Positions 4,989 to 25,050 of a stretch of 26,297 bases of DNA are shown in pieces (positions within the stretch are counted from its first letter, which is position 1; every line of letters starts with the position of its first letter). Source of the DNA: a virus. Under the pieces are notes generated by a model. The model made no database searches and was not told where the DNA came from. It saw only the letters and a program-made list of their open reading frames with translations. A program made the translations under genes and the position numbers. The DNA lies in IMG/VR virus record IMGVR_UViG_3300001680_001509, positions 1 through 26,297 of that record; one strand, 5' to 3'.

Positions 4989-5360
4989 ATGGCTGAACTA
5001 AAGCGCGATAGAGTTAAGTATATTCGTGATAGGGCGAAGAGTGCGTATGTAAAGGACACAGAATGTTTTATATGCGGGGACACAGAGAAATTAGATTTTC
5101 ACCACTTTAACTCAGTGACTGAACTTCTTGAAAGATGGATAAAGCAGAAAAACTTGACTATAAATAGTGCAGAAGATATGATGGATATGCGGGACGAATT
5201 CATTGAATTTCATCATAAAGAGATTTATGACGATACAGTGACCTTATGTCATAGACATCATTTGAAACTACACTCCATTTATGGGAAAAGACCTACTTTA
5301 GCTACGGCCCAAAAACAAGAACGCTGGGTGGACAAAAGGCGTGAAAAGGAATATAAATGA
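4989..5360 (+). CDS. HNH-type nuclease-like protein
   Basis: The 123-residue product has the layout of a zinc-binding HNH (beta-beta-alpha metal) protein: CFIC at residues 26-29, the central FHHF with His38-His39, and CHRHHLKLH at 87-95. The paired Cys-x2-Cys and Cys/His cluster would hold structural zinc, and His38/39 would be the catalytic position. HNH proteins next to terminase and portal genes are known in HK97-like phages to assist cos cleavage and packaging; position argues for that role rather than a homing nuclease. GAGGAG lies at 4974-4979. The stop overlaps the portal start as ATGA. Confidence 0.85.
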   Translation: MAELKRDRVKYIRDRAKSAYVKDTECFICGDTEKLDFHHFNSVTELLERWIKQKNLTINSAEDMMDMRDEFIEFHHKEIYDDTVTLCHRHHLKLHSIYGKRPTLATAQKQERWVDKRREKEYK

Positions 5361-6550
5361 GTATATTAGATATTATTAGAGACAAGTTAAACCCATCTCA
5401 ACCAGATATCTCCATTAATTTAGAAGGTTCGGAGATATCTACTACCAAACCATTCAAAAAATTTGGTGATGCGTATAGAGATGTAGAAGTGGTTAATAGA
5501 GGAGTCAACATGTTAGTTGACTCTGCTGTAGGATTAGAATTTGATATTGGGGATAAACTAGCGTTTACCGGCCCGGCAAATATTAGAAGAAATAAGTTAG
5601 CCTTATTACTAAATAAGCAACCTAATCTATTTCAAGATGCCTCAGCTTTTAAGCGCAATTTATATACAGATTTTTTAGTTGAAGGTAACGCTTTTATCTA
5701 CTTTGATGGAGCGCACTTATATCATTTACCTGCATCTAATGTTATAATTAAAACAGATAAGAAAACATTTATAGAAAGCTATGAGTACAACAATGTATTC
5801 TATAGCACTGAAGAAATTATTCATATTAAAGAGAACTCAGCAACTTCAATCTATAGAGGAGACTCTAGATTGGCATCTTGCTTAAGAAGTATTAATACTC
5901 TTTATAAGATGAGGTTATTTCAAGATAACTTCTTCGATAATGGAGCAGTACCAGGATTAGTACTAAAAACTCCAAACACTTTAAGCACAAAAATTAAGGA
6001 TAGGTTATTGGCTTCTTGGAGATCCAAGTATAACCCCAAGACTGGAGGTAGAACTCCTCTTATTTTAGATGGTGGATTAGATATTTCCCCTCTCTCTAAT
6101 ACTAATTTCCAACAGTTAGATTTTGATGAAAGTTTAAAGACTTTAGAGTCTAGAATTTTACAAGCGATAGGAGTTCCACCCGTATTATTAGATGGTGGAA
6201 ATAATGCTAATATATCTCCTAATACTAAACTAATGTATCACCAAACGGTTATACCTTTAGTTAAGAAGTTTAATTCAGCTTTCGAAAGATTCTTTACATA
6301 CGATATAGACTTAGCAACTCAAAAAGTTTTTAGTCTACGTCCAGAATTAAAAGATGAGTCGCAATACTACTCAACTTTAGTGAATAATGGTATTATGACA
6401 GGAGCTGAGGCTCGTGAGCTACTACGATTAGAACCTATTGATGACGAAGCACTCAATACTATTAGGATTCCAGCTAACGTGGCGGGAGCCGCAACAGGTG
6501 TAGCCGGTGAATCAGACGGAAAACCTGTACAGGATACATCAGAGGAGTAA
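5357..6550 (+). CDS. Portal protein (HK97 family)
   Basis: The 397-residue protein fits the HK97/lambdoid siphovirus portal family, the dodecameric ring through which DNA enters the head and to which TerL and the neck attach. Recognisable features include the N-terminal region with VVNRGVNMLVDSAVGL, the middle GNAFIYFDG and YRGDSRLASCLRSINT segments, the stem/crown region LESRILQAIGVPPVLLDGG, and a C-terminal Ala/Gly-rich tail (residues 370-397). The length is near that of HK97 portal. AAGGA just upstream and the ATGA overlap with the HNH gene support this start. Confidence 0.93.
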   Translation: MSILDIIRDKLNPSQPDISINLEGSEISTTKPFKKFGDAYRDVEVVNRGVNMLVDSAVGLEFDIGDKLAFTGPANIRRNKLALLLNKQPNLFQDASAFKRNLYTDFLVEGNAFIYFDGAHLYHLPASNVIIKTDKKTFIESYEYNNVFYSTEEIIHIKENSATSIYRGDSRLASCLRSINTLYKMRLFQDNFFDNGAVPGLVLKTPNTLSTKIKDRLLASWRSKYNPKTGGRTPLILDGGLDISPLSNTNFQQLDFDESLKTLESRILQAIGVPPVLLDGGNNANISPNTKLMYHQTVIPLVKKFNSAFERFFTYDIDLATQKVFSLRPELKDESQYYSTLVNNGIMTGAEARELLRLEPIDDEALNTIRIPANVAGAATGVAGESDGKPVQDTSEE

Positions 6551-6552
6551 AG

Positions 6553-6879
6553 ATGACACAGAACGAGCAATTAGAGTTAATGATTGAATTCTTTAAAAAG
6601 AACGACCATGAATTAAGCGAAGGTCACTATAGAGCTAGGAAAGATAAACCAGTCTCCATTAAGTTATTAAAGAGAATGTGGGGTTCAGGTAACGCTTACT
6701 TAAGAGCAAGACGTCGTGCTATTGAAGAAATAGCAAAAAGAGTAGTAGTTTCAAAACCAGTACCTAAGGCCGTAGCACCCGCTACACCTAAGCCTGGTAT
6801 GTTGAATAAACCCACGCCTAAAGCAGCCCCTAAACCGGCTCCTACGGCAAAGGTAGAGAAGGGAACAAAAAAGGCTTAA
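6553..6879 (+). CDS. Lys/Pro/Ala-rich structural protein candidate, 108 aa
   Basis: Residues 1-70 look like a small charged helical domain (MTQNEQLELMIEFFKKNDHE, then a basic segment RARRRAIEEIAKR). Residues 71-108 are a disordered Lys-Pro-Ala tail with repeated PKP and PKAAPKPAP units. The start has GAGGAG 7 nt upstream, inside the end of the portal gene. It lies between portal and protease/capsid, where head accessory, scaffold-like or DNA-binding proteins occur. The basic tail may bind DNA or a capsid partner. No family recognised. Confidence 0.75.
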   Translation: MTQNEQLELMIEFFKKNDHELSEGHYRARKDKPVSIKLLKRMWGSGNAYLRARRRAIEEIAKRVVVSKPVPKAVAPATPKPGMLNKPTPKAAPKPAPTAKVEKGTKKA

Positions 6880-6884
6880 GCCTT
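6871..6884 (+). other. Palindromic hairpin before capsid gene
   Basis: AAGGCTTAAGCCTT is a perfect 14-nt palindrome forming a 5-bp stem with a TTAA loop. It contains the stop codon of the preceding gene and is followed by T5 and then the AGGAG ribosome-binding site of the capsid gene. It could be a weak attenuator or an RNA processing signal that helps the capsid mRNA be made or kept separately. Confidence 0.35.
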
Positions 6885-6903
6885 AATTTTTAGGAGTTAA
6901 TTT

Positions 6904-8847
6904 ATGAGAAATAAATTTGAATTGCATACTCATTTTACCAAGGCAGTTTCTGATGAAGAAGGTGTTCTACGTATAAAGGGGTATGCTAACACGACTACTA
7001 AGGACAGAATGGGGGATGTAATCCCTATGGATGCGTGGACTAAATCAGGTGCTTTAGAAAATTTTCTAAAAAATCCTATTGTTCTTGCGTATCATGACCA
7101 TTCGCAACCCATTGGAAAAGTAGTAGATTATTCTATTACTAGCAAGGGGTTAGAAATAGTAGCCGAAATTAGTAAAGCTGCGGGGAATGTAGCAGATCTC
7201 ATCATAGATGAGGTTCTAAAAACTTTCTCTATTGGGTTTTCTATCAAAGATGCAGAGTATGACAGAGAGTCAGATATTTTTACGATCAAAGATCTAGAAC
7301 TATTTGAAGTATCAGTCGTATCTGTGCCGGCAAACCAAGATTCAACTTTTTCTGTGGCTAAGTCATTAGACACTGCAGATTTAGACGAATTAAAAACGAA
7401 GTATGGAACGTCTGAAGTAACAGAAGCTGTTAAAGCTGAAGTGGCGGAAGATATTAATAATAAAACAGCACCTGTTGCTGAAGAAAAGGAAGAACTAGAA
7501 ATGGATAAAAAAGAACTAGAAGCTTTACTGGCTAAAACTGCAGCAGATGCGGCAACAGCTGTAACAGCTAAAATAGAAGCTAAAAAAGCGGAAGAGAAGG
7601 CTGCACTAGCTGCGGAAACTAAGAAGCAAGAAGAAGCTGAAAAAACTAAGAATATTGCTATTGAGGCAGGTGCTACTGGTGCTGAGCGTCTTATGGCTGA
7701 TATTGCTAAAAAGATGGAAGATGAAACTGCTTCATTGAAAGACATCGTTAACACAATGGGTGAAGAACTTAAAGCTAAATCTGATGAGATTGAAGCTATG
7801 CAACGTTCTAAGATGACTTTTGCTGATCATAAAGAAGAAGCAATCGCTAAAGAATCTGCAGAAAAAGCTTACTTACTAGGTATCGTATTACGTAAAAATA
7901 TGTTTGATACAAAGTATGGTGCTGGTTTAGTAGAGAAGGTTAATACTTCTTCATCTGCACAAGTATCTTCAGATAAGTACGAGCAAGAAGTATCAACTAA
8001 TCTTGAACGTGATATCTATGAGAAGCTAGTTGTTGCTCCTATGTTCCGTTCAATTGATATGAATCAAGCGACTATGGTATTACCAATTGCTCCAGATGCA
8101 GCTATGGCTGACTGGGTTGCTGCTAGTACTTACGGTGCTGATGCTACCACGGGTGGAACTAAGACTACTGCGTTAACAGAGATCTTATTACAGACGTATA
8201 AGATGGCTTCTAAGTCATTCTTAACTGACGAAACTGATGAAGATGCAATTATCCCATTACTACCTCTAATCCGTGACGGTTTAGTACGTGGTCATGCTCG
8301 TGCAACTGAAGATGCGTTACTTAATGCTGACTCTACAGTATCTCCAACTACTGGACCATTCAATGGTTTAATTAAGAAGGCTGGTACTAATGTAAATGCA
8401 GTTAAAGTTGGTACTACAGGTACTGCTAAGATTATTGCTAAGGACTTACTTGAGACTCGTCGTAAGCTAGGTAAGTGGGGCTTAGACCTTTCTTCTCTAA
8501 CTTGTATTGTTAGTCAAGAAGTATACTGGGATCTATTAGAAGATGATAACTTTGCTCATTTGAATGAAGTAAATGGTCTTGCAACTAAGATTTCTGGTCA
8601 AGTTGGCTCAATGTACGGTATGCCAGTAGTTGTCTCTCCTGAGATGCCTGCTAAAGCAGACGGCGCAGCTGGAGCAGTAATTGTTGCTACTTCAAACTTC
8701 GTAATGCCTCGTATCCGTGGTTTACGTGTTCAGTCTGACTACTATGTTGAGAAACAGCAGCAAGTTATTGTTGCTACTCAGCGCTTCGGCTTCAGTGATA
8801 TTATCGCTGGTCAAGCAGTAGTTGCTATGACATACGACTACTCTTAA
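6904..8847 (+). CDS. Prohead protease / scaffold / major capsid fusion protein
   Basis: One 647-residue frame holds three functions that are often separate. Residues 1-155 are an HK97-type prohead protease (S78 family): GYANTTTKDRMGDVIPM (26-42), AYHDHSQPIGKV with catalytic His64 (or 66), TFSIGF with nucleophile Ser109, and ELFEVSVVSVPAN (132-144). Residues about 200-300 are an Ala/Lys/Glu-rich coiled coil acting like the HK97 delta (scaffold) domain. Residues about 305-647 are the HK97-fold capsid, including SMYGMPVVVSPEMP near the end. AGGAG lies 8 nt before the ATG. Codon use changes to CGT-only Arg in the capsid part, and an internal ribosome-binding site precedes Met200. The protease should cut itself and the delta domain away during head maturation. 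Confidence 0.93.
   Translation: MRNKFELHTHFTKAVSDEEGVLRIKGYANTTTKDRMGDVIPMDAWTKSGALENFLKNPIVLAYHDHSQPIGKVVDYSITSKGLEIVAEISKAAGNVADLIIDEVLKTFSIGFSIKDAEYDRESDIFTIKDLELFEVSVVSVPANQDSTFSVAKSLDTADLDELKTKYGTSEVTEAVKAEVAEDINNKTAPVAEEKEELEMDKKELEALLAKTAADAATAVTAKIEAKKAEEKAALAAETKKQEEAEKTKNIAIEAGATGAERLMADIAKKMEDETASLKDIVNTMGEELKAKSDEIEAMQRSKMTFADHKEEAIAKESAEKAYLLGIVLRKNMFDTKYGAGLVEKVNTSSSAQVSSDKYEQEVSTNLERDIYEKLVVAPMFRSIDMNQATMVLPIAPDAAMADWVAASTYGADATTGGTKTTALTEILLQTYKMASKSFLTDETDEDAIIPLLPLIRDGLVRGHARATEDALLNADSTVSPTTGPFNGLIKKAGTNVNAVKVGTTGTAKIIAKDLLETRRKLGKWGLDLSSLTCIVSQEVYWDLLEDDNFAHLNEVNGLATKISGQVGSMYGMPVVVSPEMPAKADGAAGAVIVATSNFVMPRIRGLRVQSDYYVEKQQQVIVATQRFGFSDIIAGQAVVAMTYDYS
7486..7503 (+). promoter_or_regulatory. 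Possible internal ribosome-binding site for scaffold-capsid
   Basis: AAGGA (7486-7490) lies 10 nt before an in-frame ATG at 7501 (Met200), exactly at the junction between protease and coiled-coil scaffold. Initiation here would give a 448-residue scaffold-capsid protein without protease, allowing excess capsid over protease. The purine-rich coding sequence here makes chance SD-like matches common, so this is an inference from position. Confidence 0.45.
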
Positions 8848-8920: not shown

Positions 8921-9508
8921 GTGGCAACTTTAATAACAGTGGCAGACTACAAATCATATGCTGGCATTACTAGTACTAAGTTTGACACACAGATCTCTAA
9001 TATAGTTACTGCAATAAGTGCAATTATTAAAACATATTGTAACCGTACTTTCGTAGATTACGCTAGTACAGATAAAACCGAGTATTTTAGTATCGCTAAT
9101 GATGCTACCATATTTGTAGAAGAAATACCTATAATATCAGTAACATCACTAAAGGTACGATTAAACCCTAGGGTCGCGTACACTACATTAGTAGAGAATA
9201 CTGATTTTGTTGTGGAAGAGGGGCAAATTGTCCATATTGATCCAACTACTGGTGGAGCATTAAAATTTCCACATGGACCACTAGCCGTAGAACTAAAGTA
9301 TAAAGCTGGTTTTACGACAATACCTGGTGATTTAAAAATTGCTGCAATGGATATGGTTACTTTCTATATGAAGAAGGAAGCAACACAAGAAGTAATGATG
9401 ATGTCTAAGTCTCCTAGTAATATTAGTAGATCGGCTAATGATAAGCAGGTATCTAATTTCCCTCCACATATTTCACGTATACTAAATTATTATAGAACTA
9501 TACTGTAA
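8921..9508 (+). CDS. Head-tail connector (HK97 gp6-like)
   Basis: The 195-residue protein has the pattern of phage head-tail connector/adaptor proteins of the HK97 gp6/SPP1 gp15 type: an N-terminal helical bundle (ITVADYKSYAGI, then AISAIIKTYCNRTF), a central beta part with EYFSIANDATIFVEEIPI and LKVRLNPRVAY, and a C-terminal helix (LKIAAMDMVTFYMKKEAT). The position right after the capsid is where this gene sits in HK97-like phages. It would form a ring under the portal. Start is GTG at 8921 with AAGGAG about 7 nt upstream. The stop shares a base with the next start (TAATG). Confidence 0.82.
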   Translation: MATLITVADYKSYAGITSTKFDTQISNIVTAISAIIKTYCNRTFVDYASTDKTEYFSIANDATIFVEEIPIISVTSLKVRLNPRVAYTTLVENTDFVVEEGQIVHIDPTTGGALKFPHGPLAVELKYKAGFTTIPGDLKIAAMDMVTFYMKKEATQEVMMMSKSPSNISRSANDKQVSNFPPHISRILNYYRTIL

Positions 9509-10992
9509 TGGCTGTAAAGGACCTCAAGAGGTTATTACTGAAGTACGAATCAAATTTAGCTAATAAAGCCAACTATAACGCGTCAAAATTAGCAAGAGTA
9601 AATACATACAATAATAGAGATTATGTAGTAGATTTAAGCAAGAAAACTATAATAAAAAATACTAAAGATAATATTAGAGTAGCAGGTAGAGATGAACCTA
9701 CTGCTGCAGAATTAGAGAATATTTGGGAAAGAACAATTGCTTCTATTAAAGCTGCAATACCTCCCTTTGGTGGAACAGGAAATAAAAGTGTTGGTGGTGC
9801 AGGGCAATTTAAAGTTACCTGGAATTCTAGCAATACTATTATGTATATTAAGAATGTAAAGAATGATCCATGGTCGGGGCAAAGTACCCATACATTCCTA
9901 TTAAAGCTTAGGCAAAAGTTAGAAAAGGAAGTATGGGGCTTCAATGTAGGTAGTGTTGCTAATAAAAAAAGAGGTACCAGTACTACAGCAGGTGTAGATA
10001 TTGGACATGTTGAGGACTTAATACTCGTACAATTAAAAGATACTCTATTAGGCAGTATTAATGATATTATTAGAAGCTTTAAATCTACGAAAGCAGCTAG
10101 AGGTATAATTTTAGATGATATAGCAAAAGAGCTAAGAAGTGGAGTAGCTAGCGGAAGTATACCCTTTAATACATTTATTGAAGTAACTAAGAATATAACT
10201 AGTGAAGGCACAATTAAGATGGGTGTTGGAGTAGGTGCAGAAGATGTGCCCTTAAAAACTTTTGAAAAGTGGATTGAAGTTCAGTTTGAGGCTACTTGGC
10301 AGAACCAAGGACAAAAGTCTAAGGATGTACAAGCTGCTGCTAAACTATTCAAAAAGACCATATTACCTGAGATATTAAAAAGTTTAAATAAGTTAGTAGG
10401 TCAAAATGATTGGCCCGGGCAGAAAGCAAGTCCTGCAATTAATGAAATGATTGATACTATGATAGAGAATTCTCTATTTAGTACTAAAAATGTTAATACT
10501 AGATTCGGCTCAAAAGCTAAGAGTAAAAAGAAAGCTGCAAAGCTAAAGTCTAAAGTAACTAAGGTTAAAAAGTATTTAAGAAAGAAACCTAAGAAACCAC
10601 CTCCTAGTAAAGGAGATATAAGAAACTATATTCAAGACCCTAGAGGAAATTGGATTTCCCCTATAAGTCTTACAAGCTTAATAGATGGATTAGTAGGGTC
10701 ACAAGTTGCAGCTAATATGGGTACTCCTGCTCTTAACTATCGTACAGGTAGATTTTCAGAGTCAGTAGAAGTACTTGATATAATGCCAGATACTGGCATT
10801 ACTATTAGAGGACAAAGACAAGAACAAGTGACGGCATATTATACATATATGAAAAGACCGTACGAAACTTTTGAAAGAAAAGACAAATGGGGTGAATTTA
10901 AAAACCCAAGAAGATTAATTGATAAGTCTATCCGTGAGATAGCTACAAAGTATATTAATGCGAGGTATGACTTAAGGACGGTTAGATTATGA
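9508..10992 (+). CDS. Neck or tail-completion structural protein, 494 aa (unassigned)
   Basis: I do not recognise the whole protein. Residues 1-330 are mixed alpha/beta with Gly-rich loops (IPPFGGTGNKSVGGAGQ near 84-100). Residues 335-364 are a Lys-rich, probably disordered stretch (repeated SKKK, KLKSK, RKKPKKPPP). Residues about 400-494 contain NYRTGRFSESVEVLDI and YYTYMKRPYETFERKDK, then LIDKSIREIATKYI, which resembles a C-terminal pattern I have seen in phage virion structural proteins. It lies between connector and tail terminator genes, where head-closure and tail-completion proteins are encoded. It may be a fusion of a neck protein with an extra N-terminal domain. Confidence 0.75.
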   Translation: MAVKDLKRLLLKYESNLANKANYNASKLARVNTYNNRDYVVDLSKKTIIKNTKDNIRVAGRDEPTAAELENIWERTIASIKAAIPPFGGTGNKSVGGAGQFKVTWNSSNTIMYIKNVKNDPWSGQSTHTFLLKLRQKLEKEVWGFNVGSVANKKRGTSTTAGVDIGHVEDLILVQLKDTLLGSINDIIRSFKSTKAARGIILDDIAKELRSGVASGSIPFNTFIEVTKNITSEGTIKMGVGVGAEDVPLKTFEKWIEVQFEATWQNQGQKSKDVQAAAKLFKKTILPEILKSLNKLVGQNDWPGQKASPAINEMIDTMIENSLFSTKNVNTRFGSKAKSKKKAAKLKSKVTKVKKYLRKKPKKPPPSKGDIRNYIQDPRGNWISPISLTSLIDGLVGSQVAANMGTPALNYRTGRFSESVEVLDIMPDTGITIRGQRQEQVTAYYTYMKRPYETFERKDKWGEFKNPRRLIDKSIREIATKYINARYDLRTVRL

Positions 10993-13683: not shown

Positions 13684-16600
13684 ATGGCCAGTAAGAGTAA
13701 AAACATACAAATTATTGTAACTAGTAAGGGATTAAAAGAGGTAAAAAGAGACCTCGTATCTATCCGAAAACTTACTGGCCCGGGTAAAAATAATAATATT
13801 AAGATTAACCTCAGTGTTAATCAAAAATTCTTTCAAACGTCATTACAAAAGGCGTTTAAGAATATCGCCACTAAGAAACTTAATCTTAGTATAAATCAAG
13901 CATTCTTCAATAAATCTTTAGCAAATGCAATTGCTCAGGCAGAACGCCGTGGCATTAGATTAACCGCAAATGTTATTGGAACAGGAAGAGCAAGACCAGA
14001 ACAAAAAAGAGCCGAGCGTATATCTGGAGGAGCAGCTACGTCTAATATAGTTGGTGGTGTTGCTTACCAAAGATCATCTATGATAGCTACTCAGGCTGCT
14101 ACTAAGGCTCAAATAGCGGGTAACCAACTTGTTGCGAAGAACGTTCATTCAAATAAAATAGTTGCTAAGCAAGCTGAACAGGGTCGTCAAGCGACACTTA
14201 AACAGGCGTCACATTCAAAGTTTGCTAATAAACAGTTACAGAATCTAAATAGAGCTATATCTTTATTAAATAAAACTATGGAACGAGTAATTCGTTCTAT
14301 GTTACAGATAGAGTTAGTAATAAAATCTAATAGTGGTGTAAAAACTGGAAACACAGAACGGCAGATAAATAGAATTAAAAGCCAAGCTAAGGTTACTCGA
14401 CGAAATTTAGCATCAGCTACAGCTTTAGAGCCTTATGACCCTAGTAGTACTAATAGAAGATATGCAGGTGGCGCACCAAAACATCCATCTGTATATAGAC
14501 AGGATCAAGAAGCCTATAGAATCAGAAAACAGTTAGATGCAGGGCAAGCATCTGGACAAAGATTTACTACACTGACAGGCGGAAGACAAGTCGATACCAG
14601 AGAGGCTATTAGAGCAACTCACGAAGCAAGAAGGCTAAAGTTTGATACTGGTCAACTCGATAAAAAAGGTCAAAAGATATATCGTAACGCTGATACCTCT
14701 GAGGTTAACGCAGAACAAGTTAGAGTGGTTAAAAAGTTAGTTGCTTCTCAGAGAACTTTACAACATCATGTAGATAAACAGAGCAAAGAATATATCGCTA
14801 GTAAACCCCCTATATACACTTCAGAAGTTATGGGGGGTAGAACATCGGGAGCGAGAGGAAGCCGTCCAGGCGGGTCTGGCGGGTCTGGCGGGTCTGGTGG
14901 CGGAGGTGGTGGTCGTGGTCGTAGTATAACTGGTGCTGATCCATATAAAAGAAATAGAGGTATCATAGGTACTAAAGGCGGGGGCGGAGACTTTTCGCAT
15001 ATGGCATCTGGAATGGGTGGCTTTGTTGGTATGTATGCTGAAGTTGCAGCTAAGACTTTCGCCTTAGGAGCCGCATTTAGAGCTCTAAAAGAAGCTGCTG
15101 ATTTTGGTGTGCTTATTGATGGTATGAAAGCCTATGAGGCAGCATCTGGAGCATCTTTATTATCTGTAGCCAAAAGAGTACAAGAAATTACTCAACACAC
15201 TATAGGACTTAAGCAGGCATCACAAGGTGTAACTATGTCTATAGCTGCTGGGTTTGACTCAACTCAAATTGAAGCTATGGCAACAGCAGCCAAGAATGCA
15301 GGACTAGCCCTAGGGCGAGACTTGGGTGATGCTTTCGACAGAATTACCAAAGGTGTAACAAAAGCAGAGCCAGAATTATTAGACGAATTAGGAATTATAT
15401 TACGTCTTGAAACTGCCTCTAAAAAATATGCTAAAACAATAAGAAATTTAGACGGTAGTATAGGTAAAAATGTTAAAGAACTAACTACTTATGAGAAGCA
15501 ACAAGCTGTATTAAACGAAGTTATAACTCAAGCTGAAAATAAGTTTGGCTTATTAGGCAAGCAGATGGAAGGTAAAGCTAACTCTTTATCAGCAATATCA
15601 GCTGCTTTAACAGATACAGCTCTTAAAGCGGGTAATTTCGCGCTAGACTTTGATATAATATTTGGAATAGCTAGTATTAAAGATGTAGTAAAATTCTTTT
15701 CTGAGAATGCTACAGCAGTAATCGCAGCTTTTTCTGGGTTAGCTATATTTTTACTAAAGAATATGATACCCCAGGTAGGAAAATTTACTAATAAGTATTC
15801 TGATGCTGCAAGTAGGTTTGCAGCAGATTCTCATGCTATGGCAGTATCAGCTAAAAATAGTGGAACTACATTCCAAAGCTTTGCTAAACAAATGAATACC
15901 ATGGGAACAGGTGCTGCATTCTACTCTACTATAGAGGATATGGGTGTTAATGTAACAAACGCAGAAGGTCTCATAGTAAATAAGTTTGATAATATTACTA
16001 ATGCGTACAGAAATCTATTAAGTGAAGGGGGCGTGAATAATGCCCAAGCGATGCGCCACCTAACGGATGTAGCTGGCGGAGATGTTGCAAATATGTTGGT
16101 AGATTCTGCAGATAAGGTCAACATGTCTAAACTTGACCTAGCTAATGATCCATTTGCGGGTACTAGGGATGTGCAGAAGGCAATGAGTTCTTCCCTAATG
16201 AGTAATGTCGATGGATTAATAGGGGATATGGAAACTACCGGCAGAAGAGTCGGCACCCTTATTGATGAAGGCATGGGCATTGAGATGGATGTAACCAGAC
16301 GAGGACTAAAAGATCTAAGGATGCAAATGCTTAGAACGGTAGATCCGAAAGCATATGCTAAGCAGTTAGCAGAGATGGAAAGTGCTGTAACTGGATCATC
16401 ATCAAGCTGGGCCAGAAATATGGAAGGCAAAGTTAGATCCCGTATGGCTTTTAATGCCAAAAAAGCGGGTTTACGAGCAGCAGGTAAATTTGAAGTTCAA
16501 CAAGCATTTCAACATGAAGGAACTTCTGCAGGGTGGCAAGAAGCAAGTTACCAAGCTAAAAGGTATGGCAAAGAGATGGATAAGCTATATAAGGCTGAAG

Positions 16601-19600
16601 GCAAAAAAATGAACTTGTATCATAAAGCCCTAAAGTCTATGGGCAAAGCGAATATTAGGTTCGGCTCACAAATTGCTTCTCTTGGTCGTGGTATAATGTC
16701 AGGGGGTATGAAAGCTATGCAAGCTGTAGCTATATACACCATGCTTGAAGCAGCTGTAAAAGGTATATCTAAAGCATTCGGTTTCACTACTGACGTTATT
16801 AGTAAGGCTATTTCAGGTGCTAATGCTTTTGGGGAAGAATTAGACGCTCAACAAGAAAAATGGATAGGGTACTCTAATCAGTTAAATCTATTCACTAATA
16901 GTTTAGAGGGAATAGGTAAAGCAGCTGGTCAAGAAGCTAGTAGTTTAGAGAGTTTTTCTAACTCATTAACTACTATGTCTGTTAAGTGGGGTCAGGCAAT
17001 TGATAAAATGACAGCTGGTGATAAAGTAGGCGAAGTCTTCTCAGAGATGGTATTCTGGTCAGATAGTATGTCAGAGTCAATGGATGAGCAAACTAAAAAG
17101 TTTATTGATACGGTAAAAACTTCTGGGCACTTAAAAGCAATTGCGTCAGCATTGAGTATAGATATAGATAGTATAACACTTTTTGATTCTAAAGGTAGAC
17201 TAACTAAGGATCTGGCCAGATTTCAAGAAGAGACAAAAAAGGTCTCTGCAAGCTCTAGAAATTTAGAATCGAACATTAAAGACTTAGCTCTAGCATTTCA
17301 AGGCTTAGGAGACGCTCAGTCTGAGTTTGCAAAAGGATTGCTAACATCTACTAAGTTTGATACTTTAGTAGATCAGTCAAAAGGGTTGAAAAAAACTTTT
17401 GAGGATACATTCTATAATGAACAATCAATAATGGCCTTTGAAGGCACATTAGATAGAGCCGTAGAAGCAGTAAAAGAATTTAAAGATACTTTAGGAAATC
17501 TTAGTTTTGAGATTGATCTAGTAAAAGTTTCCCCTAGTACTGGTAAGGATATTATAGGGTTATTAGGAAAAGATTTAGAACGAGTTACAGAGTTACAGAA
17601 ACAGTTGCCGTCGTTTTCGGAAGGTATATTTGCCCCTAATGAATCTTTTGTTAAGACTAAAGCAATAAATCAGGAAATTCATGAAGTACTGTCAAAAGCT
17701 AATGTACAGAGGCAACAAGAGGGAGTAGCTAGCCAGCTAAAAGATTCATTATTACCTCAACTTAAGAGAACTGCCTTTAAACATATACCTGAGGAAGAAT
17801 GGAATAAGGTATCTAAAGCTATCCTTGCAAGTATTCATACTAAAATTGCCGATGCTGCAGCTGCTCAAAGAGCAGAGCAGTTTGCCAATATGCAGTCTGG
17901 CAATACTATGAGTGGGATCGCCAGTCTTGAGTCGTTATCAAGTGATGCTTTAGAACTATTAGTAAAAGATGCTGTAGGTAAACAAATTACTCCTGATATG
18001 ATTAAGCAGGGTATGTGGAAAAGTGCTATAGCAAGCCAAATTGAGGGTCTGAGCATAGAGCTACAATCAGCGCTGGAGACACTATTACTAGAATCTGGTA
18101 GATTTCTTAAAGATGAAAAAGAAGGGTTCCTATCAAGAATACATGAAACTGTAGATAGTAAACTATCATTTACGGAAGCAAAGGATACAATTAGAGAGGC
18201 TATTGTACTTTATGATGACTTTGTAAAAAATGCCCAAAGACAATTTAGATACTTACAGGGTGAAATAGATCTCATGGCTTCTGCTATGACAAGGTTAAAG
18301 GGTACTGGAACATCTACAGATTTAATCAAATCTTTAAATATAGAAAGTAAAATACTAGATAGTAAGCAAGCTCAGTTCCGTCTAACAATTAAAACTCTAA
18401 GATTGAGTAAACGTACAAAAGAAAATCAAGAAGCTATTGCTCAAGAACAAAAGAAAATCGCAGACTTAGAGCTTAATAGGTTATCTGAAGCTCAAATAAT
18501 ACATCAAGGTATTACTACAGAAATTAAGTATCAGTATAGCATATACGAAAAGAATCTTGGGCTGATTACTGATATGGTAACGGCGCTAGAGTCTATAGGT
18601 AGCATAAATAAGTCTCAAGTAGCACATCTAAACTTTGTGTCTACTAAACAAACATCCATTAATTCTGCAATTAAGGACTGGTTAGATATACATACTAAGT
18701 ATCAGAAAGATTTGAAATCTCCTGAAGCTGATAAAGTAAAGTTACTTGAAGCTTACACATCTGCTAATAAGATAGTAGGGGAGCGACTTACTAATATTGT
18801 TAAAATTGCAAAGATAGAGAGGGATTCTTCTTACTTAGATCATAAATTAGACCTATACAATAAAATGGTAGATAGAGCTAGTGCTCTATTAGATATACAA
18901 AAAGAACTATCAGGTGTGCATGATGCCAATGCTAGTACTACCGAATCTCTAGCAATTATTAGTGCTAGGGAATCAGACCTTGCAAAAGAAAGACTTGATT
19001 CTATGAGGGCAACTACTGAGCTAACTGAGAGGCATACACTTGCTCTACAGAATGCTGTGGGTAGTACTACAGACTTAACTAAATGGTATAAATTAGAGAA
19101 AGCTCATATGGCTTTCATGCTAACTACTAGAGAGGAACTTATAAGTCTACAGGCATTAGCAGCACTAAATACCCTTAAAGAATCTTCTTCTCTTGAGAGT
19201 ATAAATAGGCACTTAGTTGCTCAAGAAGAACTAAATAATGCTAAACTTACTAGTAGTCTTCATGTTAATAATATTAAAGCTAGAGAAAATAGATTATCTA
19301 ATATTAAGAAGAAGTTTGATATTAAGGCTTTACAGCATGAACATAATGTACTAAAAATTAGAGATAAACTAGAAAATCTAGAATTAACATCTTGGGAAAG
19401 ACAGAATCTAATTAGAGATATTGATTCTGAAATCCTAGAGATGGAGAAAGAAAAGGTAGAAGTTTTAGAGGAATACGTAGAGGGGCTAAAAGCTGCTCAC
19501 GAAGCAAAAAAGAGAATAGGCGAAGCATCTTTAGATGATGAGCTATACTATAGAATTAAAGAAATGCAAGAGGCTATGCCTAGTGCTATCGATTCAGCTG

Positions 19601-22600
19601 CCAATGTAATGATAGGGTCTATTAATACTGCTGTAGATATGATGGCAGAAAATATTAAGGAAGGCGAAGGAGCCTTCGGTGCGGGCGGATTTGAAAATTT
19701 TGCGGCTAAGCAATGGCGAGCTGCTGGAGATACACTTATAGACTCTGCAGCTGAGAAAATGAAAGTGGCTTCAGCCAAGTTAATGTTAGGCTCTACTTAC
19801 ATTACTCCAGAAGAAAAAGCAGTACAAGCACTAAAGAAACAAGACATTGGAAATAACTATTTATTAGATATTTCTGCGACTCTAAAAGCTATCAGAGATA
19901 GAAGGGTTGACATATCTAATCAGACAGGCACTACTATTAATGGTGTAGAGGATTTTTACGCAAAAAATAAGAATAAGAAAGTATTTGACCAATTCGTGCC
20001 AACAACTAAGTCTGAATTTTTAACAAATGCTATATTAGCGGCCGAAACTACAGGCGATAGAATTGCTGATACTTTAGAAAAGCTAGTTGATATTATGGAT
20101 ACTATGAGATTAAATAAATCTCTAGATAATACTCCAAGCTGGTTAGGTGTTGCAGACAACCTTATGTCAAATGAGGATCGCGCCTTAGCAGTAGCTCTAG
20201 ATGTACAAGCAGAATCAATTTTTAAAGCACAAGATAATTTCAATGCTCAGTGGGATGCGATGGAGCACCGTCTAAATACTACTCCAAGCTGGTTAGGTGA
20301 GCCAACAAACAATCTTATGTCAAATGAGGCGCGTGCTGCAGCAGTAGCAGCTGATAAAGCAGCGAAAGTATCAGCAGCTAGAGCAGCGGAAGAAGAATAT
20401 TTAGATCTTGCGATGTTCCAAGCTGAATTCGACCAAGAACAGATGGAGGCTCAGGCTAATATAGAGCGATTCATAGAGTCTCTAGGTTACTCAATGGATA
20501 GAGTTATAAGCTTGGGTAATAAAGGGAAAACAGCTACAGAAGTAATAACTAATTATACAGATAAGTTAAGCAACCTAAGTGCTGAAGACACTAAATTTAG
20601 GGAACATGAACGGTACAATAATAACCTTGCAGAACTTAAACAATTCTTACATGGTGCTGTAAACGAAGAAATGGGTAGTGGCTTTATGGGCTTCAATCCT
20701 ATGAAGACTGTGGCCCATAGTATGTTGACTAGTGAAATGGGTCAATACAATGACCCTAATATAGTAAATTCGGGTATGCTTGCTAATACTAGAGCAATGA
20801 TGGCGGATAAGATGTCTGGACAGGTATCCCCAGATAAGATAGCATATATTTTAGATAGGTTCGATAGATTCGCAGCACAATTCGATAATTACAAAGCAGC
20901 TGTAGATAATTATACAGAGAAGTTACTGGCACCAACAGTCGTTATACCATCTATACCCTTAGAAAAGCCCAAGTATAACGCTCTGCCTAGTGCATCTGAT
21001 CTTAACCATAATCCTACTTGGCAAGACAGAGATGATAACAATAGAGGCGCAGAATTTTATGCACATGGTGGGCATGTGTCAGGATTAGGCGGCCCTACAG
21101 ATGATTCAGTAGCCGCATGGCTATCTAATGGAGAGTTTGTTGTTAATGCAGACGCCGCTCAAAGAAATAGAGCTTTCTTAAATATTATTAATGAAGGTGG
21201 TAAGATACCTGGATTCTATGAAGGAACCAGACCAGATAGTTATTTAGGTGGAGGTATTTTTGATGCTGTAGACCCTCAAGTAACTAGAGTATTGAGAGAA
21301 GTAGCCGGGCATGTGCTTACTATAAGTACCTTATTAAAAGACCAGGTAGGCTACTCTGTTCGCGCAATTGATGATTTATCTAGAGAATTAGTATTCGATT
21401 TAGTATCTGTTATAGAATTCGAATTAGGAATCCCTATGGGAGAATTCATGAGTTTCATCTCTACAGAGATGTCTCCTACATTAGATAAATTAAATATTAC
21501 ACTAGACACTATTAATACTGAGTTTACTAGTGCGTCTAAGACTTATGACACAATCACTACTCCAAGTGAGTGGTTCTCTCCAAGTGAGTGGTTCTCTCCT
21601 AAAGCAGGCGACCTACCTCATAATAAATTTGCAGCAGGTGGTCGTATTTCAGGCCCAGGGGGCCCTAAAGAGGATAAGATCCCTGCCTGGTTATCTAATG
21701 GAGAGTATGTTATTAATGCAGCCTCTACTAAAAAGTATGGACCATTAGTAAAATCCATCAATGACGATACTCTGAATCTAGCTGCTGGTGGAAGATCAGA
21801 TAAGAGTAAATATGCTAAATTTGCAGAGGGAGGCATTGCTAAATTTGCAGATGGTGGTTCATTTGATTGGATGAAATCTCTTCAAAAAACAAACGTAAAT
21901 GATGCTGTTCAAAGACTAGCAGATAAAATGAATATAAATAATGTCATAAAGAATGATGACGTTATGCGAAATACTAGTGGAAAGATGCACAAAGCTGGTC
22001 CAAACTTTAAAACTTTTAAAGGGGCAAGTTGGTGGGTAAACAAAGAAGGACAAAGAGTTCGTAATGTAGGGAAGCCATACGGTAATTGGCAAGAGGGTAT
22101 GAAGTGGAAAGGTGGAAGTGCAGGAGCTCATAGATTTGGGCCTTTCAGTACAGGCAACCCTTACGCGGGTACTCCTCCAAACCTTAATATGCATGAAGTC
22201 GGTACTGCCACTAATAGAAATAAGCCAGTATCAATACTAAATCAATATGACAAAAAACCTGATGGGACCGCTAAATATGCCAAAGGGTTTAAAAGTGTAT
22301 CTGACGAAAAGAAAGCAGCACTAATAATATACGATAAGCTAATGGCAGGAAAGGACCCATATAGAGGTAAGTCCCTTATGGTTCCAAACCCTGTATCACA
22401 TCAAGGTATTGTAGCAAAAAGTGCCAAAGGAGTACAGTTTGCCAAAGGTTTAGCGCAGGAAAGGAGAATTTGGACTAAAGGATTTGCTAAAAAAGCAGCT
22501 GGATCTTTAGTTGGTTTACCTCTTGCGGGAGGACTTGGCATAGCTGAGCTTATAAACATACTAGTAGGTAACCCATTCGTGGATGAGCCTAGAAGTGTTA

Positions 22601-25050
22601 TGCAAGGATTTGCAGGTGGCGGACTAATATCTGACTTCTTCCTTGGTAAACAAGCGAATGCTATTAATATAACACCTGGTTGGGGACCATTCGGTGAACG
22701 ATTAATGCCAGGTGGCGTTGGACGTGGTATAATGCCGAGTGGTGGGGGTGGAAGGTCTTCAGGTATTCCCCCATTACCAAACGGTAGAATTACTATCGCC
22801 CATAGAGGGAATATGACTAGGGAAGAGTACAAAACCCTCAGACAACAAGTAGACTCTAGGAACGGCGTATTTGTACCAGGACTTCAACCATGGGATATGG
22901 CTCAGAGACGGTCGGCTGCTAGATTGGATATGTGGAAATCGATACACAGCCATGGATCATTTGCCAATGGAGGTCCAGTAGGTAACGCGGAAAGATTCGT
23001 TAGAGGCATGGATTGGAATATTATGGGGTGGGAGGACGATGTCGTACCTAAAGATCCAATGGGGTTACATAAATATGGTTTCTCTTCTAAATCTAGAGGT
23101 AAGAATGATCTTAATGATAGACTTAAGCTATCTTTCGAAGGGCTAGATCCAGATGCTATGGCTAATAAAGCTCCTTTCTTCTTTCTAGGAAATCCAGGAC
23201 AAGACCCTATATTCGCACTAAGAGGGCGACTGGCAGGGGGTAATATCCGTGGAGTTGCAGAACAGGGTTGGGATGAAGATGGTAACTGGGCTAAGATAGC
23301 TACATATTTTTCAAGTATAGAAGGTGATATGGTGCGTACTATGGCGCATGAAACTGGTCATTTTCTCCCTTCGGCCCAACTTGGCTGGAAAGAGGTATTT
23401 GGGGATAAAATAGATATATCTTGGTTCAAGCATTTAGCAACAGATAAAAATGATAAAGGTGGAACTAAAGAAGATAGAAAAATGAACCATGCGTTTACTT
23501 ACCGTGAAGACCAGATAGGTAGGGAACTTATTGCACGTACTAGAGAAAGAATGGCAGTATCCCCTATGGGAACAAGCATTAAAGATCTGGTTCCTGAGTG
23601 GTTAAAAGAATACTATACTCAAGAAATGTGGGAGGCTCTAACTGATGCTTCCATTCCTAAGAAGGCAGACTATGATATGGAAAGAATGTTTGAAACTCTT
23701 TCTGGTAAAGGTCGTAATGGAGATACAGAATTAGCTCATGTTAATCCTTTTGAGTCTAGTGTACTAAGAGGTTTGGGAGGATCTGGAAGTGTCAATCCTA
23801 CCACAGGTCTGAGAGAATATGCTCAGCACAAACTTGCAACCGTTAAAACAAAGAGTGTAGTACAAGAAGATCTTTTGACAAAGATTAGTAAGATGACTGA
23901 AGAACAAGCTGAGACCCTTAAAAAGCAACTTGAGTACTTTGAAAATTCATTTAACTTCCAGAAAGGTGAATTAAATGAAGAGCAGAAGAACTGGAAGTTA
24001 TTCAATGACTCTGACGCTGTTAAATCATTTGAGGGCTCAACAGGTATAAGTGCTCAAGCTTTAGTACAAAGCTTTGGTGCTTCTTTTGAGATGGAACTAG
24101 GAAGTTTATTTAAAACGGGTAAGTTTGACGTTAAGAGTATGCTTTCAACGTTTGCAACTAGTGTCAGTGTAGCCTTTATGAACTCAGCAACAGCAATGGC
24201 AGTAGACTATATAGATAGTTTAGGAAGGGATTTATTCTCTTCTTTAGCCGGAGACGGAAAATCTGAATCTAGTAAGGTTGTAGATGATTTTGGCACTAGT
24301 GTAAAGAAGTCTGTATCTGATACATTTGATAAAGAAACTACTGGTACCGGAGGAATATGGCAGAGTATATCCAATTTTGGTACTAAGTTATTTGACGGTA
24401 TAGGAAGTATATTTAATGGTGAGGGAGGAGACGGCGGACTTATGGGTATGCTAAAAACTGGTGGAAGCTGGCTTATGGATCTGTTTAGTGGTAGCGGTGA
24501 CTGGTTATCAAGTTTATTCAGTGGTTTCACCACCACAGCTTTAGCTAAAGGTGGGTACGCAGAATTTGCAGCAGGTAATGGCGGTGCGATACACGGTGCA
24601 GGTGGTCCAACAGCAGATGCAATTCCTGCTTGGCTATCTAATGGTGAATATGTTATTAATGCATCTTCTACAGCACGATACAGACCTATAATAGAAGCCA
24701 TCAATGCTGATGAGTTAGCTAAAGGTGGATTCGCTAGATTTGCTAGAGGCGGGTTCCCAGAGTATACTAAGTATGCTGCAGGTGGAATTAGTGATACTAT
24801 GACTCCTGGACCAGATATGGCAGCTATTAAGCCTATCCCTCAAGGGTCAATGGGTAAAACTGAAGTTAGCAATAATGTCAGTGTAAATGTTAATGTAACG
24901 AATGGTGGTGCTTCTATAGATGTTGATTCTGACTCAGGTAATGAGTTAACTCAAGAACAGTCTAAAGCGCTTGGTTTAATGATTGGACAGAAGATCCAGG
25001 AACAGCTAATTGATGAGCAAAGACCTGGTGGAATTTTAAGTGAGTATTAA
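13684..25050 (+). CDS. Giant tail tape measure protein, 3788 aa
   Basis: This single uninterrupted frame sets tail length and likely enters the cell envelope with the DNA. Residues 1-395 are basic and helical. A Gly/Ser linker spans 396-413. About 480-660 hold the conserved tape-measure core (for example ALGRDLGDAFDRITKGVTK and EPELLDELGIILRLETASKK). Hydrophobic stretches occur near 680-694 (IAAFSGLAIFLL), 1016-1030 and 2942-2963. Residues about 1000-2200 are mainly helical with coiled-coil character. Three WLSNGE modules begin near 2460, 2651 and 3633. HETGH at 3222-3226 suggests a zinc metallopeptidase domain, with REDQIGRELIART downstream offering a possible third ligand. Near 1.5 angstrom per residue it predicts a tail of about 570 nm. 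AGGAT lies 8 nt upstream of the ATG. Confidence 0.96.
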   Translation: MASKSKNIQIIVTSKGLKEVKRDLVSIRKLTGPGKNNNIKINLSVNQKFFQTSLQKAFKNIATKKLNLSINQAFFNKSLANAIAQAERRGIRLTANVIGTGRARPEQKRAERISGGAATSNIVGGVAYQRSSMIATQAATKAQIAGNQLVAKNVHSNKIVAKQAEQGRQATLKQASHSKFANKQLQNLNRAISLLNKTMERVIRSMLQIELVIKSNSGVKTGNTERQINRIKSQAKVTRRNLASATALEPYDPSSTNRRYAGGAPKHPSVYRQDQEAYRIRKQLDAGQASGQRFTTLTGGRQVDTREAIRATHEARRLKFDTGQLDKKGQKIYRNADTSEVNAEQVRVVKKLVASQRTLQHHVDKQSKEYIASKPPIYTSEVMGGRTSGARGSRPGGSGGSGGSGGGGGGRGRSITGADPYKRNRGIIGTKGGGGDFSHMASGMGGFVGMYAEVAAKTFALGAAFRALKEAADFGVLIDGMKAYEAASGASLLSVAKRVQEITQHTIGLKQASQGVTMSIAAGFDSTQIEAMATAAKNAGLALGRDLGDAFDRITKGVTKAEPELLDELGIILRLETASKKYAKTIRNLDGSIGKNVKELTTYEKQQAVLNEVITQAENKFGLLGKQMEGKANSLSAISAALTDTALKAGNFALDFDIIFGIASIKDVVKFFSENATAVIAAFSGLAIFLLKNMIPQVGKFTNKYSDAASRFAADSHAMAVSAKNSGTTFQSFAKQMNTMGTGAAFYSTIEDMGVNVTNAEGLIVNKFDNITNAYRNLLSEGGVNNAQAMRHLTDVAGGDVANMLVDSADKVNMSKLDLANDPFAGTRDVQKAMSSSLMSNVDGLIGDMETTGRRVGTLIDEGMGIEMDVTRRGLKDLRMQMLRTVDPKAYAKQLAEMESAVTGSSSSWARNMEGKVRSRMAFNAKKAGLRAAGKFEVQQAFQHEGTSAGWQEASYQAKRYGKEMDKLYKAEGKKMNLYHKALKSMGKANIRFGSQIASLGRGIMSGGMKAMQAVAIYTMLEAAVKGISKAFGFTTDVISKAISGANAFGEELDAQQEKWIGYSNQLNLFTNSLEGIGKAAGQEASSLESFSNSLTTMSVKWGQAIDKMTAGDKVGEVFSEMVFWSDSMSESMDEQTKKFIDTVKTSGHLKAIASALSIDIDSITLFDSKGRLTKDLARFQEETKKVSASSRNLESNIKDLALAFQGLGDAQSEFAKGLLTSTKFDTLVDQSKGLKKTFEDTFYNEQSIMAFEGTLDRAVEAVKEFKDTLGNLSFEIDLVKVSPSTGKDIIGLLGKDLERVTELQKQLPSFSEGIFAPNESFVKTKAINQEIHEVLSKANVQRQQEGVASQLKDSLLPQLKRTAFKHIPEEEWNKVSKAILASIHTKIADAAAAQRAEQFANMQSGNTMSGIASLESLSSDALELLVKDAVGKQITPDMIKQGMWKSAIASQIEGLSIELQSALETLLLESGRFLKDEKEGFLSRIHETVDSKLSFTEAKDTIREAIVLYDDFVKNAQRQFRYLQGEIDLMASAMTRLKGTGTSTDLIKSLNIESKILDSKQAQFRLTIKTLRLSKRTKENQEAIAQEQKKIADLELNRLSEAQIIHQGITTEIKYQYSIYEKNLGLITDMVTALESIGSINKSQVAHLNFVSTKQTSINSAIKDWLDIHTKYQKDLKSPEADKVKLLEAYTSANKIVGERLTNIVKIAKIERDSSYLDHKLDLYNKMVDRASALLDIQKELSGVHDANASTTESLAIISARESDLAKERLDSMRATTELTERHTLALQNAVGSTTDLTKWYKLEKAHMAFMLTTREELISLQALAALNTLKESSSLESINRHLVAQEELNNAKLTSSLHVNNIKARENRLSNIKKKFDIKALQHEHNVLKIRDKLENLELTSWERQNLIRDIDSEILEMEKEKVEVLEEYVEGLKAAHEAKKRIGEASLDDELYYRIKEMQEAMPSAIDSAANVMIGSINTAVDMMAENIKEGEGAFGAGGFENFAAKQWRAAGDTLIDSAAEKMKVASAKLMLGSTYITPEEKAVQALKKQDIGNNYLLDISATLKAIRDRRVDISNQTGTTINGVEDFYAKNKNKKVFDQFVPTTKSEFLTNAILAAETTGDRIADTLEKLVDIMDTMRLNKSLDNTPSWLGVADNLMSNEDRALAVALDVQAESIFKAQDNFNAQWDAMEHRLNTTPSWLGEPTNNLMSNEARAAAVAADKAAKVSAARAAEEEYLDLAMFQAEFDQEQMEAQANIERFIESLGYSMDRVISLGNKGKTATEVITNYTDKLSNLSAEDTKFREHERYNNNLAELKQFLHGAVNEEMGSGFMGFNPMKTVAHSMLTSEMGQYNDPNIVNSGMLANTRAMMADKMSGQVSPDKIAYILDRFDRFAAQFDNYKAAVDNYTEKLLAPTVVIPSIPLEKPKYNALPSASDLNHNPTWQDRDDNNRGAEFYAHGGHVSGLGGPTDDSVAAWLSNGEFVVNADAAQRNRAFLNIINEGGKIPGFYEGTRPDSYLGGGIFDAVDPQVTRVLREVAGHVLTISTLLKDQVGYSVRAIDDLSRELVFDLVSVIEFELGIPMGEFMSFISTEMSPTLDKLNITLDTINTEFTSASKTYDTITTPSEWFSPSEWFSPKAGDLPHNKFAAGGRISGPGGPKEDKIPAWLSNGEYVINAASTKKYGPLVKSINDDTLNLAAGGRSDKSKYAKFAEGGIAKFADGGSFDWMKSLQKTNVNDAVQRLADKMNINNVIKNDDVMRNTSGKMHKAGPNFKTFKGASWWVNKEGQRVRNVGKPYGNWQEGMKWKGGSAGAHRFGPFSTGNPYAGTPPNLNMHEVGTATNRNKPVSILNQYDKKPDGTAKYAKGFKSVSDEKKAALIIYDKLMAGKDPYRGKSLMVPNPVSHQGIVAKSAKGVQFAKGLAQERRIWTKGFAKKAAGSLVGLPLAGGLGIAELINILVGNPFVDEPRSVMQGFAGGGLISDFFLGKQANAINITPGWGPFGERLMPGGVGRGIMPSGGGGRSSGIPPLPNGRITIAHRGNMTREEYKTLRQQVDSRNGVFVPGLQPWDMAQRRSAARLDMWKSIHSHGSFANGGPVGNAERFVRGMDWNIMGWEDDVVPKDPMGLHKYGFSSKSRGKNDLNDRLKLSFEGLDPDAMANKAPFFFLGNPGQDPIFALRGRLAGGNIRGVAEQGWDEDGNWAKIATYFSSIEGDMVRTMAHETGHFLPSAQLGWKEVFGDKIDISWFKHLATDKNDKGGTKEDRKMNHAFTYREDQIGRELIARTRERMAVSPMGTSIKDLVPEWLKEYYTQEMWEALTDASIPKKADYDMERMFETLSGKGRNGDTELAHVNPFESSVLRGLGGSGSVNPTTGLREYAQHKLATVKTKSVVQEDLLTKISKMTEEQAETLKKQLEYFENSFNFQKGELNEEQKNWKLFNDSDAVKSFEGSTGISAQALVQSFGASFEMELGSLFKTGKFDVKSMLSTFATSVSVAFMNSATAMAVDYIDSLGRDLFSSLAGDGKSESSKVVDDFGTSVKKSVSDTFDKETTGTGGIWQSISNFGTKLFDGIGSIFNGEGGDGGLMGMLKTGGSWLMDLFSGSGDWLSSLFSGFTTTALAKGGYAEFAAGNGGAIHGAGGPTADAIPAWLSNGEYVINASSTARYRPIIEAINADELAKGGFARFARGGFPEYTKYAAGGISDTMTPGPDMAAIKPIPQGSMGKTEVSNNVSVNVNVTNGGASIDVDSDSGNELTQEQSKALGLMIGQKIQEQLIDEQRPGGILSEY
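14869..14895 (+). repeat. Tandem 9-nt repeat encoding Gly-Gly-Ser linker
   Basis: GGCGGGTCT occurs three times in perfect tandem, followed by a Gly-rich run. It encodes the flexible linker at residues 396-413 of the tape measure protein, separating its basic N-terminal region from the conserved core. Confidence 0.9.
20131..20355 (+). repeat. Imperfect direct repeat in tape measure gene (PSWLG...NLMSNE)
   Basis: Segments 20131-20202 and 20281-20355 are similar: both encode TPSWLG, a short spacer, NLMSNE, then an Arg/Ala-Val run (residues about 2150-2173 and 2200-2224). They share an exact 19-nt block, ACTCCAAGCTGGTTAGGTG, and an almost exact block around CTTATGTCAAATGAG. This looks like a partial duplication of about 150 nt that has since diverged. 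Confidence 0.85.
21064..21150 (+). repeat. WLSNGE module copy 1 (tape measure)
   Basis: Encodes GGHVSGLGGPTDDSVAAWLSNGEFVVNA-type sequence at residues about 2461-2489. It is the most diverged of three copies. This Gly-rich turn plus AWLSNGE[FY]V[VI]NA unit is known in many phage tape measure proteins; its role is not established. Confidence 0.9.
21562..21597 (+). repeat. Perfect 18-nt tandem duplication (tape measure)
   Basis: CCAAGTGAGTGGTTCTCT is present twice without a mismatch, encoding PSEWFS twice (then P). The exact identity suggests a recent slippage event. Confidence 0.95.
21634..21720 (+). repeat. WLSNGE module copy 2 (tape measure)
   Basis: Encodes AGGRISGPGGPKEDKIPAWL then SNGEYVINA at residues about 2651-2679. 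It is followed by KKYGPLVKSIND, and by short FA.GG units (KFAEGG, KFADGG) at 21820-21860. Confidence 0.92.
24580..24663 (+). repeat. WLSNGE module copy 3 (tape measure)
   Basis: Encodes GGAIHGAGGPTADAIPAWL then SNGEYVINA at residues about 3634-3660, near the C-terminus. It is followed by ARYRPIIEAINAD and short FARGG/YAAGG units, the same arrangement as copy 2. Confidence 0.92.

Follow-up and report, generated by a model that had tools for sequence, protein, structure and literature searches.

In phage lambda, a start codon is nested in frame inside the protease gene of the head operon (C/Nu3). The nested lambda product is a scaffold only, the capsid protein E is encoded separately and the protease is of another family than that of the phage described below. 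Herpesviruses possess a protease-scaffold gene, UL26, with an in-frame, 3'-coterminal nested scaffold gene, UL26.5 (PMC4498786); nesting is achieved there via separate transcripts, and the capsid protein is not part of it. The capsid precursor of T5 forms 775-copy proheads, from which pb11 removes the N-terminal scaffold domain (PMC5292684). In the T5-like phages pVp-1, VspSw_1 and PWKp9S, and in Tequintavirus and Thalassavirus, protease and capsid precursor are specified by separate adjacent genes. Fused capsid-protease genes are already known from PHROG 617, 2263 and 4523, from NCBIfam NF045541, and from Arthrobacter and Microbacterium phages. Passages of the Arthrobacter phage paper note the fusion and compare it with other fusions; these passages make no mention of an internal start (PMC5513430). 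While nested starts in head genes and fusion genes are both known, the locus presented here is new in combining them into a putative nested capsid start. No description of such a start in these fusions was found in open-licence papers.

The window (the whole stretch of DNA analyzed) is a virus record of 26,297 bases from an uncultured phage. It contains a fused protease-capsid ORF flanked by genes for portal, head completion, T5 p143-like and tail terminator proteins, which identifies the locus as the head module of a T5-related siphophage. The features are as follows:

5357..6550, plus strand: portal protein (Pfam Phage_portal, E 2.9e-53), upstream of the fused ORF, in synteny with the T5 head module
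6892..6896, plus strand: Shine-Dalgarno (SD) sequence AGGAG serving the full-length (protease) start at ATG 6904, spacer 7 nt
6904..8847, plus strand: fused ORF, S78 prohead protease, delta scaffold and HK97-fold major capsid in a single frame, 647 aa
6952..7371, plus strand: Peptidase_S78 domain, residues 17-156 (Pfam E 2.5e-16)
7408..7500, plus strand: variable, predicted disordered linker from protease to delta (AlphaFold2 pLDDT <50, residues 169-201)
7486..7490, plus strand: internal SD AAGGA, 10 nt before ATG 7501
7501..7503, plus strand: internal in-frame ATG (Met200), candidate nested start, aligned to T5-like capsid-gene starts
7501..8847, plus strand: putative nested product, delta scaffold plus major capsid, 448 aa, in frame and sharing its stop codon with the fused ORF
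7501..7938, plus strand: delta (scaffold) domain, 146 aa (AlphaFold2; long helices 202-252 and 260-302)
7939..8844, plus strand: predicted mature capsid protein, 302 aa, HK97 fold (Foldseek)
8921..9508, plus strand: head completion protein (Pfam HCP, E 1e-16), downstream of the fused ORF
9508-10992: T5 p143-like tail completion protein (Pfam T5_p143, E 6e-9), after the head completion protein

Further downstream (13684-25050), a tape measure protein of 3788 aa, matched by four tape-measure PHROGs, takes up 43 % of the window, and its size points to an unusually long tail. Directly 5' of the protease ribosome-binding site, at 6871-6884, a terminator-like hairpin (AAGGCTTAAGCCTT) followed by AATTTTT was observed, which exceeds shuffle expectation; judged by eye, it is not kept in the relative L003.

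A preliminary description of this DNA had placed a protease, a coiled-coil delta domain and an HK97-fold capsid in one frame. The single frame was borne out, and Pfam found Phage_capsid at residues 361-642 in addition to the Peptidase_S78 domain. Fused frames identical or 80 % identical to that of the window were seen in several independent metagenomes, so the fusion is not an assembly error. Residues 1-199 are 45-55 % identical to T5-like prohead proteases, with H64, H66, S109 and S137-S140 in conserved columns of the alignment; from Met200 on, identity to the T5-like capsid precursor is 35-38 %. The alignment is variable in the linker, where L003 has an 18-nt deletion, and the AlphaFold2 model puts Met200 where the disordered linker meets the first delta helix. 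The best PDB matches of the capsid part in Foldseek are the DT57C and T5 capsids (40-43 % identity). Delta and capsid are predicted to be cut apart after K345 (EK|VNTSSS, K345|V346), which would leave 302 aa. In the nested product the site is K146, and the alignment pairs it with K159|AVN of the Tequintavirus capsid precursor, the place of the T5 cut.

The window shares with the T5 pb11/pb8 pair the protease and capsid families, the N-terminal delta scaffold, the gene order, the position of the capsid start and a similar spacing of the ribosome-binding site. The two differ in that T5 has two genes with a stop codon between them whereas the window has a single frame. Accordingly, of the features of a T5-like (Demerecviridae) head module, the S78 prohead protease and the HK97-fold precursor with its N-terminal delta and K/xVN-SSS cleavage region are present, but protease and capsid precursor are not two genes. 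Met200 sits in the alignment column of the start codons of T5-like capsid precursors, several of whose genes carry AGGA at the same 10-nt spacing as the internal SD of the window; pVp-1 and Wyman, whose capsid genes are separate, also have this spacing. The precursors compared are 458-465 aa long, versus 448 aa for the nested product. A T5 pb11/pb8 pair written in one frame is a nearer counterpart of this locus than lambda C/Nu3, the comparison drawn in the preliminary description, which fits in principle, although the nested product of lambda is a scaffold only. How small the step between fused and separate genes can be is seen in Vibrio phage phi 3: both genes share a frame, just a TAA and one additional codon lie between them, and the protease coding sequence contains the capsid SD. 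Phi 3, VCPH, PSTCR5 and fuchur had come up as possible fused isolates through one-piece tblastn matches and were rejected, as they have separate genes in the same frame. Among the best tblastn matches against 50,697 phage records no isolate with a fused T5-type gene was present, and scans of bacterial genomes yielded no relative.

The sequence around the candidate start, 7484-7503, reads AAAAGGAAGAACTAGAAATG. The AAGGA, the ATG, the 10-nt spacer and the 448-aa product had all been given exactly in the preliminary description. At the sequence level, there is thus an internal start with a ribosome-binding site of its own and the stop codon of the long ORF. Owing to the many K and E residues of the linker, synonymous shuffling of the gene recreates the SD in 64 % of trials (p = 0.64). 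Taken alone, the motif in the window is no better than chance; its conserved position together with its nucleotide conservation in relatives is far beyond chance.

Related loci were collected from four viral scans. The 263 obtained comprised 217 fused in one frame, 36 with two genes and 10 partial ones, and clustering of the fused loci at 80 % identity gave 53 clusters. An in-frame ATG with an SD was present at the protease/scaffold border in all 53, at a spacing of 6-12 nt, a match rate that is somewhat inflated since, of the few ATGs that a stretch of 80 residues contains, the best one was scored as the border ATG, and a count that is not fully independent since the clusters share ancestry. 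By our own estimate, such a choice might match perhaps a tenth of the clusters by chance, not all of them. A border SD of -5 kcal/mol or better was found in 27 of 28 clusters of a first set, against 14 of 397 other in-frame ATGs, and in 50 of 52 clusters of a larger set, with L033 in addition at -6.0 kcal/mol; the other in-frame ATGs of the larger set had an SD this good in about 5 % of cases (40/765). Among the other codons of the border stretch, used as a control, 221 of 4420 (5 %) had an SD. It is very unlikely that only the full-length polyprotein is made and that all capsid arises by proteolysis, the freed protease being packaged or degraded in excess. The frame is indeed continuous, the protease start has a good SD of its own (-6.8 kcal/mol in L005, identical to the window) and K/E-rich linkers give SD-like sequences by chance, but such a scheme leaves unexplained the SD and ATG in 53 of 53 clusters, the synonymous constraint and SD registers described below, and the exact match to the start of the separate genes.

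Across the fused clusters the border SD is AGGA or GGAG, it occurs in all three codon registers and the peptides encoded there differ (KEEL, TKEW, NEGI/EGII, SKGK, SSRK, VFGE), which argues that conservation acts on the nucleotides of the SD, not on the protein. Where a K, E or Q codon lies in the SD, its third base is G in a ratio of 41:5, versus 162:874 (16 %) elsewhere (p = 3e-26, uncorrected for phylogeny). This site-specific test replaced a synonymous shuffle scored by the best SD anywhere upstream (p = 0.04 combined over 28 clusters), which was rejected as too permissive, given the K/E-rich linker. Around the ATG, over codons -25 to +4, only about 5 % (4-7 %) synonymous differences remain in 64 pairs from within clusters, compared with 25 % otherwise. 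KE or EE does occur a few residues before Met at most borders, as would be expected if the motif were a protein feature, such as a linker or cleavage signal, and the SD incidental. The same nucleotides in other registers and peptides (EGII, SKGK, SSRK, VFGE) and the fixed synonymous codons make this extremely unlikely. SD-like sequences about 10 nt upstream can also stimulate -1 frameshifting, and the SD might in that way cause frameshifting or pausing instead of initiation. By eye, no slippery heptamer follows the SD in phase in the window, and it is the ATG that is constant between clusters while the sequence after it varies; we give this explanation hardly any credence.

The RNA of the start region is open: its unpairedness lies on average at the 92nd percentile within its own ORF (p = 2e-10), and at the 100th percentile in the gene of the window. 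Together with the aligned T5-like start, the SD and ATG in every fused cluster and the synonymous constraint, this supports the internal start that had been proposed at the border. In L036, L237 and L240, a GGG-SD-CCC hairpin holds the internal SD in its loop, and another in-frame ATG follows four codons later; regulated initiation is possible at these loci. Hairpins upstream of the internal SD, common by eye, showed no enrichment relative to the remainder of the ORFs (combined p = 0.15). In 35 of the 53 clusters the duplex energy of the internal SD is weaker than that of the protease SD, so that SD strength does not predict an excess of the short product, which accessibility, coupling or an internal promoter or transcript would have to supply.

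One such source would be a separate mRNA for the short product, arising from an internal promoter or RNA processing site in the 3' end of the protease region, like UL26/UL26.5 of herpesviruses. The synonymous constraint extends 75 nt upstream, past any SD, and one subclade has a conserved 16-nt element, CAGCTAAAGGGCTAGA, 40-57 nt upstream of the internal ATG; these two observations hint at a further control element. In L042:1092-3051, L062, L152 and others, the sequence at this position is the invariant TCAGCTAAAGGGCTAGA, which encodes SAKGLE with a rare GGG codon (5 % usage) that is fixed in 17 of 17 clusters, and it could be an RNA operator, a processing site or a promoter. That CAGCTAAAGGGCTAGA is a repeated phage promoter, resembling the T3-type CTAAAGGG core, was rejected, as 8 contigs of 51-128 kb each contain a single exact copy, the only other matches having 2-3 mismatches. 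The element is absent from the window, where promoter-like sites are not in excess (1 found vs 2.0 expected), and upstream hairpins are not enriched overall. The observations point both ways. That the short product comes mainly from its own mRNA is the less likely case, and even then the SD and ATG would remain its translation start.

We consider it highly probable that this gene, a pb11-like and a pb8-like gene in one frame, contains the ribosome-binding site and start codon of the capsid gene as a nested start and gives two products. With this second, conserved site the phage can very probably produce capsid in excess without a matching excess of protease. Ribosomes starting at 6904 would produce a minor, full-length protease-delta-capsid polyprotein, whose delta and capsid parts would allow it to co-assemble into the prohead and thus bring the protease inside. 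Initiation at 7501 would give the main product, a delta-capsid protein of 448 aa from which the shell is built, and this nested start would set the excess of capsid over protease. The protease would then cut behind delta, at the predicted K345|V346, to yield the 302-aa shell protein.

Fusions of another capsid family, PHROG 2263, were gathered from the same collection. A GTG behind AAGGAG/GAGGAG-type sites was found at the border in 9 of 10 clusters; the tenth was not counted because the rule chose a TTG inside the protease region, and a strong SD with a start was present in the border region in 10 of 10. Among cultured phages, four types whose capsid-protease fusion is annotated show AGGA or AGAGG ahead of an in-frame ATG at the border (Met172 in Arthrobacter phage MooKitty, Met162 in Hadban, Met166 in Microbacterium phage Noelani and in Loca, Met165 in phiExGM16), the site being among the best SD sites of the ORF, not always the best. 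The PHROG 2263, Arthrobacter and Microbacterium fusions thus resemble the window in having protease and capsid in one frame and, in the members tested, an SD-like border start. They and NF045541 (prohead protease/MCP fusion) differ from it in capsid family; the window scores 52.2-52.9 bits against NF045541, below the curated cut-off of 525 bits. In Streptomyces phage HangryHippo (L266:2414-3697), the protease gene gp49 has a very strong SD, AGGGAGGTG, before in-frame ATG 255, a candidate, unannotated nested start that would yield a scaffold-like product as in lambda Nu3.

In a tree of the capsid domain, one branch divides fused from separate forms with a support of 100/100, and midpoint rooting, which no outgroup confirms, nests the separate T5-like clade within the fused forms. 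The polarity of fusion or fission does not follow from a protease tree with distant outgroups, which does not root and in which the outgroup branches are very long. Only tentatively, nested starts may be a general rule of phage protease-capsid fusions that arose in no fewer than two capsid families, acquisition of a stop codon may have turned a nested gene into the T5 pair, and the 16-nt element of the one subclade may be cis-regulatory, as RNA or DNA, and control the protease:capsid ratio.

In many phages, protease-capsid fusions are annotated as one polyprotein, which leaves unexplained how hundreds of capsid proteins are made without as much protease. A conserved nested start would answer this, and it predicts that cultured phages make a further capsid product, abundant and so far unannotated. 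It would also make the passage between fused and split head genes an easy one, as the difference between both states can be just one stop codon.
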